Assembly (NCBI GenBank): GCA_003279055.1
Contig: QCBP01000007.1
Span: 1-64,000, forward strand
Length of the DNA stretch: 64,000 bases
Source of the DNA: Prochlorococcus sp. AG-347-I21
GTDB taxonomy: Bacteria; Cyanobacteriota; Cyanobacteriia; PCC-6307; Cyanobiaceae
Reading direction: 5' to 3'
Shown: in pieces, positions 43,144 through 58,884 of the stretch
How the letters are laid out: each line of letters opens with the position of its first letter
Numbering within the stretch: position 1 is the first letter of the stretch
Translations under genes and position numbers: made by a program
The notes under the pieces: model-generated
Told to the model about the DNA's origin: nothing
What the model saw: only the letters and a program-made list of their open reading frames with translations
Database searches by the model: none

Positions 43144-44202
43144 GTGTTACAAACTTACGGAAAATCTGATGTCACCTATGACTGGTACGCAGGGAATTCT
43201 GGTGTTGTAGGCCGTTCAGGTAAATTCATAGCTGCTCACGCTGCCCATGCAGGCCTAATGATGTTCTGGGCAGGAGCTTTTGGATTATTTGAATTGGCTC
43301 GTTATGACGCCAGTATTCCGATGGGTGCACAGAAAGCAATTGTTTTGCCCCATCTTGCGGGGATTGGAATTGGTGGCATTGAAAATGGTGTTATTACTGA
43401 ACCATATGGCATTGTTGTAATTTGCACATTGCATCTAATTTTCTCAGCAGTATTGGGTGCTGGGGGATTATTACATTCCAATAAATTTGCAGGTGATCTT
43501 GGAGACTATCCAGAAAATAGTAAGCCACAAAAATTTGATTTTGAATGGGATGATCCAGATAAATTAACTTTTATTCTTGGCCATCATCTAATCTTTCTGG
43601 GGCTTGGAGCAATTATGTTCGTTGAATGGGCTCGTATTCATGGGATTTACGACCCAGCAATAGGATCTACAAGACAAGTTATTTACAATTTAGACATTGC
43701 AGCTATCTGGAATCATCAATTTGATTTTTTAAAAATAGATAGTCTGGAAGATGTTATGGGTGGGCATGCCTTCCTTGCTTTTCTCGAAATAATTGGAGGA
43801 GTTTTCCATATATGTACTAAACAATTTGGAGAATATACAGAATTCAAAGGAAAAGGATTGCTTGGAGCTGAGGCAATTTTGTCATACTCAGTGGTGGGTG
43901 TTTCTTACATGGCATTTGTTGCTGCTTTTTGGTGTGCTTCAAACACAACAATTTATCCAGTTGACTTATATGGTGAGCCCTTAAAGCTTCAATTTGAATT
44001 CGCACCTTATTTTATTGATTCAGTAGATTTAGGTTCGGGAGCATATAGCTCAAGAGCTTGGCTTGCTAATACTCATTTTTATTTGGGTTTCTTTTTCTTA
44101 CAAGGTCATCTTTGGCATGCACTAAGAGCAATGGGATTTGACTTTAAGAAAATTGGTCAAGCATTTGACAATATAGAGAATACAAAAATTACTCAAAACT
44201 AA
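43144..44202 (+). CDS. pcb: Pcb/IsiA-family chlorophyll a/b-binding antenna protein
   Basis: A 352-residue protein with six helices and paired histidines for chlorophyll, related to CP43 but lacking its large lumenal loop. It starts at GTG (MLQTYGKSDVTYDWYAGNSG), in the family's canonical position, and has IAAHAAHAGLMMFWAGAF, FILGHHLIFLGLGAIMFVEW and QGHLWHALRAMGFDFKK. Pcb proteins harvest light with divinyl chlorophylls. The sequence differs at many sites from the main high-light PcbA as I recall it, so it is probably a second, iron-stress type antenna, which its place after isiB supports. A strong terminator follows. Confidence 0.93.
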   Translation: MLQTYGKSDVTYDWYAGNSGVVGRSGKFIAAHAAHAGLMMFWAGAFGLFELARYDASIPMGAQKAIVLPHLAGIGIGGIENGVITEPYGIVVICTLHLIFSAVLGAGGLLHSNKFAGDLGDYPENSKPQKFDFEWDDPDKLTFILGHHLIFLGLGAIMFVEWARIHGIYDPAIGSTRQVIYNLDIAAIWNHQFDFLKIDSLEDVMGGHAFLAFLEIIGGVFHICTKQFGEYTEFKGKGLLGAEAILSYSVVGVSYMAFVAAFWCASNTTIYPVDLYGEPLKLQFEFAPYFIDSVDLGSGAYSSRAWLANTHFYLGFFFLQGHLWHALRAMGFDFKKIGQAFDNIENTKITQN

Positions 44203-47160: not shown

Positions 47161-48033
47161 ATGTTTTTTCAGGACATAATTCAAAATCTTAATAATTTTT
47201 GGTCTAAAGAGGGGTGTTTGATTATGCAGCCTTATGATACAGAAAAGGGGGCTGGCACTATGAGTCCTCATACTTTTTTGAGGGCTATTGGGCCAGAACC
47301 TTGGTCTGTTGCATATGCCGAACCATGTAGAAGACCTACAGATGGAAGATTTGGGGAAAATCCGAATCGTGCTCAACATTACTTTCAATATCAGGTAATA
47401 ATTAAGCCCTCTCCTGATGGGATTCAAGAAAAATATTTGAAATCTTTAGAATCTCTTGGAATAAACCCTAAAGATCACGATATCAGATTTGTAGAAGATA
47501 ATTGGGAGTCACCAACTCTTGGAGCTTGGGGTGTGGGTTGGGAGGTTTGGCTTGATGGAATGGAAGTTACTCAATTTACCTATTTTCAACAATGTGGAGG
47601 AGTTGATTGTAAACCAATTCCAATTGAAATTACATATGGTTTAGAGAGAATTGCGATGTTCTTGCAAGATAAGGAAAGTATTTGGGACTTAAACTGGAAC
47701 GAAAATCTGAAATATAGTGATATTTGGCTCCAATTTGAGAAAGGTCAATGCTCATATAACTTCACTGAATCTAATCCTGCTAATCTAAGAAAATTATTTG
47801 AAATCTATCAAGATGAAGCCAATTTATTAATTGGGAAAAGGCTTACTTACCCTGCTCTTGATTACGTTTTAAAATGTAGTCATACTTTTAATTTGCTTGA
47901 TGCTAGAGGTGTAATATCAGTAACAGATCGTGCTCAATATATAGAAAAAATTAGAAAGTTAGCAAGAGAAGTTGCCTCTGCGTGGGTAGAGGAAAGAGAA
48001 TTTATGGGTAACCCATTATTAGAAAAAAAATAA
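47161..48033 (+). CDS. glyQ: glycyl-tRNA synthetase alpha subunit
   Basis: A 290-residue alpha chain of the alpha2beta2 Gly[22 protein letters not shown] opens the protein, followed by [38 protein letters not shown] (motif 2 region) and [10 protein letters not shown] (motif 3). The catalytic class II core is complete. The beta subunit (glyS) is not in this window. It is preceded by a 169-bp gap without any gene I can support. Confidence 0.96.
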
Positions 48034-48138: not shown

Positions 48139-48171
48139 CCCATTTCTATGGGCATTTTCGTGTGAGGTAAA
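48139..48171 (+). promoter_or_regulatory. som leader: small hairpin and Yfr1-complementary Shine-Dalgarno
   Basis: The leader contains a CCCAT-TTCT-ATGGG hairpin (48139-48152) and then GTGTGAGG at 48160-48167, four bases before the ATG at 48172. GTGTGAGG includes the Shine-Dalgarno GAGG and is the exact reverse complement of CCTCACAC in the Yfr1 signature. A TACAAT at 48126-48131 may be the -10 box. This sequence pairing would let a Yfr1-type RNA block ribosome binding. Confidence 0.65.
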
Positions 48172-49494
48172 ATGAAACTCTTCCAAAAACTTTTGGTTGC
48201 AGGTACTGCATTGGGTCTTTTAACACCGATTGCAGCACAGGCTACTGAAGCAGTCAATCTTGAAGCAATGGATAGCTATCGTCGTAGGTTTTCCAAAGCA
48301 AAAACATTTGATAGTAATACATTCGCTAATCAGATTAGTGAAGATGTCGCAACCCTCAATGGTCGGGTTGATGGTATAGAAGCCAGACAAAATAATTTTG
48401 AAGCTAGTGCTTTTTCGTCTACTACAACAATGGATGGAAAAGCTGTCTTTGCGATAGGTGCTGTTGATGGTGGAGACACCATTGGTGGAACAGAGGCGCT
48501 CTCTTCAGCTTATGTATACAAGATGAACTTGAATACAAGTTTTACTGGAGATGACAATCTTTATGTAAGGCTATCAGCAGGGGAATGGGGTTCTAACTTC
48601 ACTAAAAAACCTGGTAATTACCATATTGAAGCAAAGAATACTGGCGACAACAAATTAATTGTTGACAAACTATGGTACACATTCCCACTTGGAGATAATG
48701 CAACAGTTTGGGTTGGTCCAAATATAGAGAACTACTATATGATGGCGGCAACTCCTTCTATTTATAAGCCTGGCGTTTTAAAAGCATTTAAATTAGGGGG
48801 TAATGGTGCAGTATTTGGAGCTAGTACTGATGGTGGTGCTGGACTTAAGTATGAATTTGGAGATAGTGGCTTTGCAATGAGCACAAACTACGTTGGTAAA
48901 GGTAGTAAAGCAGATGCTGGAATCTTGACTGATGGTGATAAGAGTAAAATTGATACTATGATTGCTTTTACAAAGCCTCAGTATCATGCTTCTGTTACTT
49001 ACTCCAAGCAACATGGTGGTTGGGATGCACATGAGTATTATTCAACAGAACTAATTCATGGTAATAATGGCACTACTGTTACAAGCTTAGGTTCAGATAC
49101 TAATGCTGATGCATTTGCGATTAGAGGTTACTGGAGACCAGAAAATTCTGGTACTGCTACTCCTGAAATATCAGTTGGATATGATCTAATTAGTTTTGAT
49201 AATCATTCTCTTAATGTTTCAGAAGGTTCTGGATATTTTGTTGGTCTAGGTTGGCAAGATATGATCCAAGCTGAGGATAGAATAGGGATAGCTGTTGGAC
49301 AACCTGTTAAGGCAACAAAACTTACTACAGGAACTTTGAGTGAAGTTGATCCTTTCCTTTGGGAAGCATACTATTCATTCAAGCCTAACGACTCAATTAC
49401 TGTTACTCCTGCTATATGGGGAGGAACCGATGTTGAATCCTCAACTACAGAGGATGTCTTCGGAGCTATGCTGACCACAGTGTTTAAGTTCTAA
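48172..49494 (+). CDS. som: Som-type outer-membrane porin (iron-uptake-porin family)
   Basis: A 440-residue exported beta-barrel. Signal peptide: MKLFQKLLVAGTALGLLTPI, cleaved after AQA (about residue 24). Residues 40-80 form a short helical region with LNGRVDGIEARQ instead of a full SLH domain; the rest alternates short strands and ends in a terminal phenylalanine (TVFKF), the BAM recognition feature. Som porins form the general permeability barrier in cyanobacteria. Its ribosome-binding site is complementary to Yfr1. Two terminator hairpins follow. Confidence 0.9.
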   Translation: MKLFQKLLVAGTALGLLTPIAAQATEAVNLEAMDSYRRRFSKAKTFDSNTFANQISEDVATLNGRVDGIEARQNNFEASAFSSTTTMDGKAVFAIGAVDGGDTIGGTEALSSAYVYKMNLNTSFTGDDNLYVRLSAGEWGSNFTKKPGNYHIEAKNTGDNKLIVDKLWYTFPLGDNATVWVGPNIENYYMMAATPSIYKPGVLKAFKLGGNGAVFGASTDGGAGLKYEFGDSGFAMSTNYVGKGSKADAGILTDGDKSKIDTMIAFTKPQYHASVTYSKQHGGWDAHEYYSTELIHGNNGTTVTSLGSDTNADAFAIRGYWRPENSGTATPEISVGYDLISFDNHSLNVSEGSGYFVGLGWQDMIQAEDRIGIAVGQPVKATKLTTGTLSEVDPFLWEAYYSFKPNDSITVTPAIWGGTDVESSTTEDVFGAMLTTVFKF

Positions 49495-53173: not shown

Positions 53174-53368
53174 ATGGCAAAAGTAGAAAATGATCTTGAT
53201 ATATATTATGCAGTTGGGAATGCTAATACTCAAAGACAAGGAAACGAACTTGCAGCAATTATGAAAAAACATAATTCTGCAAGATGGAAGTTGACATCAA
53301 CAAGTACGGCAATAGTAGATATTAAAAACCAGTTTTCAAATCTTTATCTATTTTGGGATAAGAATTAG
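53174..53368 (+). CDS. small conserved hypothetical protein
   Basis: A 64-residue soluble protein (DLDIYYAVGNANTQRQGNEL, then AAIMKKHNSARWKLTSTSTA and a hydrophobic strand IVDIKNQFSNLYLFW). The pattern suggests a helix followed by two strands. Unknown function. It lies upstream of the small-RNA region on the same strand; its stop at 53368 is 21 bp before the first hairpin of the Yfr1-like element. Confidence 0.6.
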   Translation: MAKVENDLDIYYAVGNANTQRQGNELAAIMKKHNSARWKLTSTSTAIVDIKNQFSNLYLFWDKN

Positions 53369-53388
53369 TAATTAATACTGTAGATATT

Positions 53389-53486
53389 TGATACATTTTG
53401 CCATTATATTGTATGTATCAGAAACTCCTCACACACTAATTTCTGATAAGTAAACACCCTTTTCTCTAAATTAGGGTGTTTTTTAA
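53389..53486 (+). ncRNA. Yfr1-like small RNA with the ACTCCTCACAC signature
   Basis: The 11-nt signature ACTCCTCACAC, ultraconserved in the cyanobacterial sRNA Yfr1, is present exactly at 53424-53434. An intrinsic terminator follows: AAACACCC (53452-53459) / GGGTGTTT (53474-53481) and a T run. Upstream, TGATACAT / ATGTATCA (53389-53396 and 53413-53420) can form a first stem, and an alternative 9-bp stem TATCAGAAA / TTTCTGATA would put the signature in a 15-nt loop. This matches Yfr1 layout (stem, open signature, terminator stem). The 5' end is uncertain. As I recall, the MED4 yfr1 gene lies between guaB and trxA, neither of which is here, so this could be an extra copy or a relocated gene. 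Confidence 0.75.
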
Positions 53487-53584
53487 TGACAAATTTACTG
53501 CTATAAAGAATTGGTAAATTTGACAGTAAATTAACATTCCATTCGACCCTTCCACGGAAAAGAAATAGATGAAATAATTTATAT

Positions 53585-53596
53585 GTGTGAAGGAGT
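53585..53596 (+). promoter_or_regulatory. sequence complementary to the Yfr1 signature
   Basis: GTGTGAAGGAGT is the reverse complement of ACTCCTCACAC except for one extra A. It sits at the 5' boundary of the Yfr2-like RNA, about 150 bp downstream of the Yfr1-like signature. If transcribed, the two could form 11 base pairs with one bulge. Confidence 0.4.
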
Positions 53597-53680
53597 GGTT
53601 TTATTAAAACAGTGGAAACATGGAAACACTTGATTTAGTAGAACCGAGGAAGAGCTCTAGAGATAGGGGTCTTTTTTTAT
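53590..53680 (+). ncRNA. Yfr2-family small RNA
   Basis: The core AGTGGAAACATGGAAACACT at 53611-53630 has the two GGAAACA repeats and the AGUG/CACU clamp that define the Yfr2 family, abundant in marine picocyanobacteria. Downstream, an AGAACC...GGGGTCT stem with internal mismatches and a T7 run (53672-53678) acts as terminator. The 5' end is estimated from TTATAT/TAATTT -10 candidates at 53575-53584. A Yfr1-complementary segment lies at its 5' boundary. Confidence 0.75.
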
Positions 53681-53879
53681 GCAAACTCACTACTTTTATT
53701 CACTATCCTATATGGTCCAATATCTGCAAACTTTTTATTTTGTAGAATTTGGCCGATTTTAAAATAATAGTGCCAGTAAGTGTCTGCGAATGTATTATGA
53801 ATTCATCTCAACTAACACTCTCTACTTTTTATTGAAAAACCAACTCTTTAGATTAAAAAAAAGTCAAATAATATCTATT

Positions 53880-56439: not shown

Positions 56440-57824
56440 TTAATCTAAATCTGGCATTTCTAGAGCTGGTTCACTCTTTCTGTCGATTCCTTTTTCGAAA
56501 CCAGCAGCGGCTGCTCTAGCACGTCCAGCATGCCAAAGGTGACCGATGAATGTAAACCATCCTAGGAAGAATTGGGCTGCAGCTAGCCATTGTCTTAGAT
56601 TAACAAAGTTAACAGCATTAGGCTCTGTAATAATTCCACCAACAGAGTTGATAGAAGCATTAGGAGCATGAGTCATGTATTCAGCAGCTCTTCTAACCTG
56701 CCAAGGCTGAATATCATTTTGGATTTTCTCAAGGCTCAATCCGTTAGGTCCTCTTAAAGGCTCTAACCATGGACCTCTGAAATCCCAAAATCTCATTGTT
56801 TCACCACCAAATATAATTTCACCAGTAGGAGATCTCATGAGATACTTACCTAGACCTGTTGGTCCCATTGTTGAACCTACGTTAGCTCCAATTCTTTGGT
56901 CTCTCACGAGGAAAGTAAAGCTTTGAGCCTGCGAAGCTTCAGCATTTGTTGGACCATAAAACTCTGAAGGGTAAGCAGTATTGTTAAACCAGATGAATGT
57001 TGAAGCAATAAAACTTGCTACACAAATTCCACCAAGTGCATAACTTAATAGACCTTCACCATTCCAGATGAAAGCTCTTCTTGCCCATCCAAAAGGTTTA
57101 GTGAAGATATGGAATATTCCTCCAATAATTGCAGTAATACCCACGTAAACATGTCCACCCACAATATCTTCAATGGAGTTAACACCGATTATTGAACCAG
57201 CCCCCCCCCCCAAGGAGATCTAAATAGATAACCAAGAATAACTCTTGGATCTAAAGTTGGGTTAACAAGTCTGACTTCACCACCACCAGGTGCCCATGTG
57301 TCATATGCACCACCAATAAAACACCAGTTTACTGACCATGCTAATGCACCTACACCTAAAACAATCAAATGATATCCAAGAATGTTTGTCATTTGATTTT
57401 TATCTCTCCAATCGGTGGAGAAAAATGGGAAATCTTCTTCAAGTTTTTCTGGACCTGCTAATGAATGGTAAATACCACCAAAACCAAGAACAGCGGAAGC
57501 TATTAAGTGAACCACGCCTGCTTGGAAGAAAGGCATGATATCAGTAACTTCACCACCTGGGCCTATTCCGTAGCCAAACATTGCAACGTGAGGCATACAA
57601 ATTAAACCTTGCTCCCACATTGGTTTATCAAAAGTAAAATGATTAACCTCAAAGAGCATCATTGCTCCTGCCCAAAAGACTATTAGTCCAGAGTGAGCAA
57701 TGTGAGCTCCTAATAAACGACCAGATAAATTGATTAATCTAGCATTACCTACATACCAGGCATAACCAGTTTCCTCAATACTTTGGTTTGGAGCTCTTAA
57801 TAAATTATTAAAGGGCGTTTCCAC
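56440..57824 (-). CDS. psbC: photosystem II CP43 protein (frame broken in an 11-C run)
   Basis: The inner antenna of photosystem II, normally about 460 residues. The first part from GTG at 57824 reads [14 protein letters not shown], then [20 protein letters not shown], to [12 protein letters not shown]. The second part resumes with [21 protein letters not shown] and ends PALEMPDLD. The two are in different frames because of 11 C (57201-57211). With 9 C the reading would be SPWGGAGSII, in line with CP43 elsewhere (SPFGGEGW). I judge a homopolymer sequencing error likely, since loss of CP43 should abolish photosystem II. GTG start is preceded by GAGGAGG. Confidence 0.9.
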
Positions 57825-58884
57825 GTGGAAGAACCTCCTCAGGGAATACAAAGTTTTCGTGTGGTTGATCCACAGAAGACATCCATGCTCGCATACCTTC
57901 GTTCAAAAGTATATTTTTTGTATAGAAAGTTTCAAATTCTGGATCTTCTGCTGCACGGATTTCTTGGCTTACGAAATCATAAGCTCTCAAGTTTAGTGCT
58001 AAGCCGACAATACCAATTGAAGATGTCCACATACCCATAACAGGTACAAATAACATCAAGAAATGTAAGAAACGCTTGTTTGAGAAAGCAATACCGAAGA
58101 TTTGACTCCAGAATCTATTCGCTGTAATCATTGAATAAGTTTCTTCTTCTTGTGTTGGGTCAAAAGCTCTAAATGTTGAACTTTGAACCTTACCATCTGT
58201 ATAAATACTTGTATCTTCGTACAAAGTGTTTTGTACTGTAGCTCCATGGATAGCGCAAAGTAGAGCACCACCAAGAATTCCAGCAACTCCCATCATGTGG
58301 AATGGGTTTAAAGTAATATTATGAAAACCTTGGATGAACAGAATGTAACGGAAGATTGCTGCAACACCGAATGAAGGTGCGAAGAACCAACTATGCTGTC
58401 CTAAAGGATAAATAAGGAAAATACTTGTGAATACTGCAATAACTGCTGAGAAAGCTAATGCATTGTATGGTCTAATTCCAACAAGGCCAGCAATTTCAAA
58501 CTGACGAAGCATAAAACCAATTAGGCCAAATACTCCATGTAATGCAACGAAGTTCCAAAGCCCACCAAGTTGTAGCCATCTTACGAAACTACCTTGGGCT
58601 TCAGGACCCCATAAAAATAGAAGACTGTGTCCCATGGCATCACCAGGGGTGCTTACAGCTGCTGTTAAAAAGTTACAACCTTCAAGGTATGAGCTTGCAA
58701 CTCCGTGTGTGTACCAAGAGGTAACAAAAGTTGTTCCGACGAACCAACCACCTATAGCAAGATATGCACAAGGAAGTAGGAGTAGTCCGGACCAACCAAT
58801 AAATACAAAGCGGTCGCGCTTCAACCAATCATCAAGGACATCAAACCATCCTCTTTGTGGGGCGCTCCCAACTGCGATCGTCAT
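57808..58884 (-). CDS. psbD: photosystem II D2 protein
   Basis: A 358-residue reaction-centre protein. It has [20 protein letters not shown] at the start, the [15 protein letters not shown] and [14 protein letters not shown] regions, and the [16 protein letters not shown] stretch with the quinone-iron histidine, ending in a [22 protein letters not shown] tail. It binds P680 chlorophylls, QA and the non-heme iron with D1. The 17-bp overlap with psbC is the conserved cyanobacterial arrangement. Upstream lie 183 bp before ycf4 (divergent), which should hold the promoter. Confidence 0.98.
57834..57840 (-). promoter_or_regulatory. strong psbC ribosome-binding site inside psbD
   Basis: GAGGAGG, nine bases before the psbC GTG and inside the psbD coding end. 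It explains how the overlapping psbC is initiated from the shared transcript. Confidence 0.8.

Follow-up and report, generated by a model that had tools for sequence, protein, structure and literature searches.

The small RNA gene at the centre of this analysis is Yfr10, and the Yfr1 gene of the same genome remains at its usual place. The find is real and largely ordinary: it is a conserved, already described kind of gene, now in a new genome. We consider it very probable that the locus, which lies in a window of 64,000 nucleotides (the whole stretch of DNA analysed), is the Prochlorococcus Yfr10-Yfr2 cassette and that it acts in the following steps. Yfr10 would be transcribed from its own promoter and would fold into two hairpins, the first of which would expose a 13-nt motif in its loop. 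The loop would pair with GTGTGAGG-like mRNA stretches, some of them at ribosome-binding sites, and this pairing would alter the translation or stability of the target. The Yfr2-family RNA, encoded 86 nt downstream and carrying a complementary 5' end, would bind the Yfr10 loop and so keep both Yfr10 and Yfr1 off their targets. Family membership, a hairpin maintained under sequence change, the tandem order, the complementarity and a conserved upstream element are seen here; both transcripts, a joint precursor, a Yfr10-Yfr2 pull-down and the relief of a reporter were demonstrated in strain MED4 by others (PMC2518516 and PMC6778093, both cited from excerpts). The coordinates of the features are collected in the table.

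Features of the Yfr10-Yfr2 locus and of a candidate target site (positions in the window)
Feature	Position	Strand	Basis and remarks
GTGTGAGG, predicted Yfr10/Yfr1 target site	48160..48167	+	starts 12 nt before the start codon of the porin-like gene 48172-49494
Upstream element TAGTAATTAATACT	53366..53379	+	14-mer at -51 to -38 from the RNA start; putative promoter role
Possible -10 box TATATT (tentative)	53405..53410	+	by eye; not in the same register in relatives
Yfr10 sRNA gene	53417..53494	+	Rfam RF02362, 99.4 bits, cut-off 43, model 1-78 of 78
5' hairpin, motif in loop	53417..53447	+	Rfam alignment and fold; hairpin kept with changed arms in relatives
Motif ACTCCTCACACAC	53424..53436	+	13 nt; read from the sequence and motif search
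Terminator hairpin and T run	53452..53484	+	sequence, Rfam alignment and fold
Decayed inverted repeat AACTG(G/T)CAC..GTGACAGTT	53509..53527	+	by eye; repeat seen before many Cyano-1 genes
Yfr2-family (Cyano-1) sRNA gene	53581..53650	+	Rfam RF01701, 64.9 bits, cut-off 41, model 1-69 of 69
Anti-motif TGTGTGAAGGAGT	53584..53596	+	complement of the Yfr10 motif plus one extra A; at the 5' end of the Yfr2-family gene
Predicted terminator hairpin of the Yfr2-family gene	53646..53677	+	fold of 53417-53690

The assignment to Yfr10 comes from a covariance search of the window, in which the RF02362 match reached 99.4 bits against a gathering score of 43 and covered all 78 model positions. As the initial annotation had stated, the exact 11-nt Yfr1 signature ACTCCTCACAC is present on the + strand at 53424-53434, and a terminator stem with a T run lies behind it. 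The signature occurs once in the window; with 0.01 copies expected in dinucleotide shuffles, a chance occurrence was ruled out. The placement of ACTCCTCACAC in the loop of a 5' hairpin that is followed by a terminator hairpin is the layout of Yfr10. In both the Rfam alignment and the fold (-16.5 kcal/mol), the 5' hairpin has 8 bp (53417-53424 / 53440-53447) and a 15-nt loop. The motif begins on the last base of the 5' arm and is otherwise contained within this loop, where CTCCTCACACAC has a predicted unpaired probability of at least 0.93, compared with 0.27 for the leading A. The terminator hairpin has 9 bp (53452-53460 / 53473-53481) and runs into the T run.

The 5' hairpin was then compared across 55 motif RNAs. 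This set consisted of motif copies 85-260 nt upstream in 80 Cyano-1 regions, chosen from about 150 among the matches listed, together with the RF02362 loci, and membership needed 100 nt of upstream sequence; the hairpin table omits two RF02362 loci that lack the motif (L032 and L034) and two loci with variants such as CTCCTCGCAC (L052 and L067). In 53 of the 55 RNAs the motif is enclosed by a stem of at least 6 bp, and the 9-nt core is unpaired in 52. The RNAs without these features (L087, L105 and L115) all come from outside the two main genera. Among 16 distinct pairs of hairpin arms, 123 of 128 positions pair, whereas 1000 column shuffles averaged 97 and did not exceed 107; since the rows are related, this count supports the hairpin and is not a probability. 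Arms were aligned from the loop outward for the count (a MAFFT alignment left them out of register), L115, with a stem of 4, was excluded, and L010 was placed in register manually. These data support a hairpin that has been kept under sequence change in relatives.

A second proposal of the initial annotation was a possible first stem, one of two alternatives that might switch the accessibility of the signature. The stem can be read in the letters of the window, where GATACAT (53390-53396) and ATGTATC (53413-53419) form 7 of 7 pairs. However, its conservation failed: in 7 other Yfr10-family loci, 2 to 5 of the 7 pairs form at the same register, and up to 6 of 7 form at other registers in three of these loci. 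Further, the 5' arm and the first four bases of the 3' arm lie upstream of the base that matches the mapped 5' end of MED4 Yfr10. When the upstream stretch was added to the fold, the motif hairpin still formed and the motif stayed mostly free. For these three reasons, the switch was dropped.

The Yfr2-family gene starts 86 nt behind Yfr10 on the same strand. By its score it belongs to Cyano-1 (RF01701), and both the anti-motif and paired GGAAACA boxes are present in it. Cyano-1 was taken as the Yfr2 family because its match at G152:346826 lies where PMC2518516, as excerpted, puts Yfr2, directly behind Yfr10. The anti-motif copy in the window reads TGTGTGAAGGAG, with the extra A, and the second copy in the genome reads TGTGTGTAGGAG. 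Motif and anti-motif are complementary, as is characteristic of an sRNA and its antagonist. The Yfr10 loop pairs with the anti-motif at -18.0 kcal/mol through 12 pairs and one bulge. Of the 6397 + strand 30-mers sampled, only two, both overlapping samples of the anti-motif site, had this value and none had a better one, and the next best + strand 30-mer of the window (-17.5 kcal/mol) lies inside a coding frame near 47592. The motif's own minus-strand complement pairs more strongly, at -27.9 kcal/mol. The full-length Yfr10/Cyano-1 duplex was unexceptional, with 29 of 500 random 70-mers equally strong.

This arrangement is the published one, and by analogy the window strain probably behaves as MED4 does. 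Genome G152 was taken as MED4 because its RF02362 match lies at exactly 346661-346738, the coordinates given for the 78-nt Yfr10 of MED4 in PMC2518516 (Table 1 there has the mapped 5' end at 346661). According to the excerpted text of the same paper, Yfr10, Yfr12 and Yfr18 adjoin Yfr2, Yfr4 and Yfr5, and pairing between them is possible; an excerpt of PMC2190773 places two further motif copies of MED4 upstream of Yfr2 and Yfr5. The portion of PMC6778093 cited here reports a MED4 pull-down in which Yfr2 binds Yfr1 and Yfr10, and the restoration by Yfr2 of a Yfr1-repressed reporter in E. coli. It also states that Yfr2 homologues of HL strains have Yfr10 homologues upstream, and in the window the RF01701 gene is downstream of Yfr10 in just this way. 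The window gene shares with MED4 Yfr10 (PMC2518516, PMC6778093) all 78 model positions, the loop motif, the terminator and the same-strand Yfr2-family gene downstream, but it lies about 3.8 kb from a psbC-like gene, whereas the MED4 copy lies elsewhere. Proximity to the psbC-like gene is common to two of the four relatives for which distances were compared. Yfr12 and Yfr18 of MED4 resemble the window gene as motif RNAs that adjoin Yfr4 and Yfr5 (PMC2518516, in the part cited); Yfr12 has the ending ATATAC and the second pair of the window genome, on contig C9, has ATACAT, whereas the window motif is unchanged.

The same evidence bears on the possibility that the main product is a joint Yfr10-Yfr2 transcript in which motif and anti-motif are paired in cis, that is, a self-sequestering RNA activated by processing. 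In the fold of the whole stretch from 53417 to 53690 (-71.7 kcal/mol), the motif is paired with the anti-motif. Consistent with such a product, Table 1 of PMC2518516 lists a 270-nt precursor of Yfr10 and Yfr2 in MED4, and the order and spacing of the two genes are conserved. However, the two genes have separate terminator-like hairpins and, apparently, separate upstream elements, and section 9 of PMC6778093 reports different responses in MED4, with Yfr10 down in high light and up 2.4-fold in darkness and Yfr2 up in high light. We therefore consider a joint main product unlikely, and favour a cassette in which Yfr10 and its antagonist are separate RNAs.

The spread of the tandem pair was examined in related genomes. 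Among 251 sampled genomes of the family, 29 had an RF02362 match (above the cut-off in 17), 234 had Cyano-1 and 202 had Yfr1. Thirty-eight genomes were compared, comprising 16 of the window's genus (g1) and 15 of a second genus (g56) from among the 251, and 7 chosen others. In these, 131 ACTCCTCAYAYA sites (18 for the reversed pattern) were compared with 99 Cyano-1 genes. A same-strand motif lies 85-170 nt upstream of 23 of the 29 Cyano-1 genes of g1 and 28 of the 52 of g56, with three more g56 motifs 352-362 nt upstream; within 85-170 nt, no exact motif was present at the other 6 of 29 and 24 of 52 genes. In the remaining genera examined, where counts are thin, the tandem order was rare (2 of 11 in g11, 1 of 3 in g2, 0 of 3 in g4 and 0 of 1 in g39). 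Every genome examined in g1 (16) and in g56 (15) had at least one tandem pair. Among motifs within 600 nt of a Cyano-1 gene in the 38 genomes, 57 preceded the gene on its own strand, 3 followed it and 1 lay on the opposite strand; a further 6, in g56, are the complement of the anti-motif itself. In named genomes, a pattern covering the entire pair matched at least 116 stretches; among the matches listed (80), 79 were from Prochlorococcus and 1 was from an uncultured Synechococcaceae. We assign g56 to Prochlorococcus as a second genus that probably corresponds to the low-light LLI clade, in which case the tandem extends beyond HL strains. What had been a printed remark on Yfr10 upstream of Yfr2 in HL strains thereby becomes a counted arrangement in two genera, and these cassette counts, together with the dedicated upstream elements, may be new.

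Several individual loci were observed in this comparison. The window genome has a second pair of its own (L002, G000:C9:61440-61656), with the motif ACTCCTCATACAT, an RF02362 score of 35.8 bits (below the cut-off), a Cyano-1 score of 80 bits and its own copy of the 14-mer element. Prochlorococcus HNLC1 (L171, GL947594.1) carries two complete Yfr10-Yfr2 pairs on the - strand, at 567-758 and 1407-1607, separated by about 0.85 kb, as if the entire unit had been duplicated. In L033 (G151:C7, genus g11), two copies of CTCCTCACATAA lie at 1182 and 1510, about 330 nt apart. A decayed pair at L233 (G095:C1:1131950-1132500) has an intact 14-mer, the motif ACTCTTCACAC and a broken hairpin.

The conserved element upstream of Yfr10 overlaps the stop codon of a 64-aa + strand frame (53174-53368), for which no Pfam match was found. 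In the 16 g1 genomes, the pattern TAGTAATTWATACT occurs 21 times and its reversed form 8 times. Nineteen of the 21 precede a same-strand Yfr10-family motif, 18 of them by 58 nt and one by 59 nt; of the other two, one stands in G095 before the decayed pair L233 and one in G220 inside what by eye is a protein-coding stretch. The corresponding g56 element, TAGTGACAAA-N(8-14)-GAGTANAAA, occurs 26 times in 15 genomes, with 0 matches to the reversed pattern. It lies exactly 46 nt before the motif in 25 cases, and the last is upstream of a Cyano-1 gene that lacks an exact motif. Since each pattern was derived from some of the same loci, matches there are expected, and it is the constant distance and the few matches elsewhere that are informative. 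Counted by hand, the exact element is present at 19 of 23 g1 pairs and 22 of 28 g56 pairs; by eye, the g56 element was not seen in the second type of g56 pair (L046, L059, L090 and L106).

The Yfr10 element differs from the inverted repeat found before Cyano-1 genes, a repeat that we suspect of being CGRE1, the site of the GntR regulator PMM1637. CGRE1 was reportedly defined in a DNA Res paper of 2018, which is also said to be cited for the position of Yfr10 upstream of Yfr2. The Yfr10 element is a putative transcription-factor site and would be bound by a regulator of yfr10. We see an even chance that the Yfr10-Yfr2 cassette duplicates as a unit, is kept in at least 2 genera and is run by a dedicated factor that acts at a cassette-specific element (TAGTAATTWATACT in g1, TAGTGACAAA-N-GAGTANAAA in g56) whose distance does not vary. 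If this is true, a single locus would fix the ratio of the loop RNA to its antagonist, and copy number would adjust it. Of these findings, the putative dedicated promoter element most merits follow-up, and the 14-mer could serve as bait for the yfr10 regulator; the regulators of yfr10 under changing light are described as unknown in PMC6778093, as excerpted.

The intact state of the window locus argues against its being a non-functional relic of an sRNA gene that is being lost, like the degraded copies in relatives. Such decayed copies are known, at L233 and at L012 in G017 (motif ACTGCTCACAAAC), and the repeat before the Yfr2-family gene of the window looks decayed. However, the window motif, both hairpins, the T run and the upstream element are all intact, and we regard a relic as very unlikely and retain a functional Yfr10 gene.

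The initial annotation had read the locus as a possible second or moved Yfr1 gene and had called for a genome-wide search for the signature and a covariance search with the Rfam Yfr1 family. The genome (G000) comprises 1.56 Mb in 40 contigs and contains CTCCTCACAC twice, at the window locus and on contig C9 at 33529. The copy on C9 is flanked by an IMP dehydrogenase (guaB) frame and a thioredoxin (trxA) frame, as named from their translations, and scores 57.2 bits for RF01116; it is the only Yfr1 match that the covariance search found in the genome. The order guaB-yfr1-trxA is the location of Yfr1 in the 8 Prochlorococcus strains carrying it, according to the excerpt of PMC2190773. Among the reading frames of the window, neither guaB nor trxA was found near 53417, so that the remark about an unusual position held. 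No RF01116 match was found in the window at the gathering score, and the locus went to RF02362 instead. Because the single RF01116 match lies at guaB-trxA, the earlier 'second copy or moved gene' becomes the usual Yfr1 plus a known second motif RNA, Yfr10; an additional motif-bearing gene does exist, but its identity as Yfr1 and its relocation do not stand. That Yfr1 itself was duplicated or moved is thus ruled out for practical purposes: the window gene shares the exact undecamer and the 3' terminator with Yfr1, but in Yfr1 two stem-loops are joined by the motif as a single-stranded linker (PMC2190773, in the excerpt), and the window motif is in a hairpin loop. These findings settle the signature as Yfr10 and not a stray Yfr1.

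A candidate target of Yfr10 is present in the same window. GTGTGAGG occurs twice in the window, once as the motif's own complement and once ahead of the 440-aa frame that starts at 48172. An 8-mer of this kind is expected, by estimate, about 0.5 times per window, which counts against the target role. The latter site pairs with the Yfr10 loop at -14.5 kcal/mol. The frame itself had no Pfam match, and its best match in MED4 (38 % identity) lies at 1068601-1069407, beside Yfr21. The excerpt of PMC2518516 places Yfr21 between PMED4_12671 and PMED4_12681 (PMM1121), and PMC6778093, in the part cited, describes PMM1119 and PMM1121 as porins targeted by Yfr1. In three homologues (one from MED4 and two from the window genome), the same 8-mer begins 14-15 nt ahead of the matched start codon; GTGTGAGG is absent from two homologue loci that are more distant (L244 and L247). 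The gene was named porin-like and predicted to be a target because its MED4 match lies beside Yfr21, near the Yfr1-targeted PMM1121, and because the 8-mer recurs in the three homologues. From this sequence evidence, the porin-like gene at 48172-49494 is a likely target of Yfr10, with a site in the ribosome-binding region; on the porins of MED4, Yfr1 is known to act at this same region.

Other features of the window were also noted. The psbC-like gene (56440-57851, - strand; named from its translation) is split into two overlapping frames. Near 57200, it contains a run of 11 G and has two bases more than all four aligned relatives, and the split is most likely an assembly or sequencing error. 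Rfam matches to IsrR were found at 43546-43717 (- strand, 53.2 bits) and at 57227-57410 (+ strand, 159.8 bits). The latter runs antisense to the psbC-like frames; this match may be due solely to the conserved coding sequence to which IsrR is antisense in isiA.
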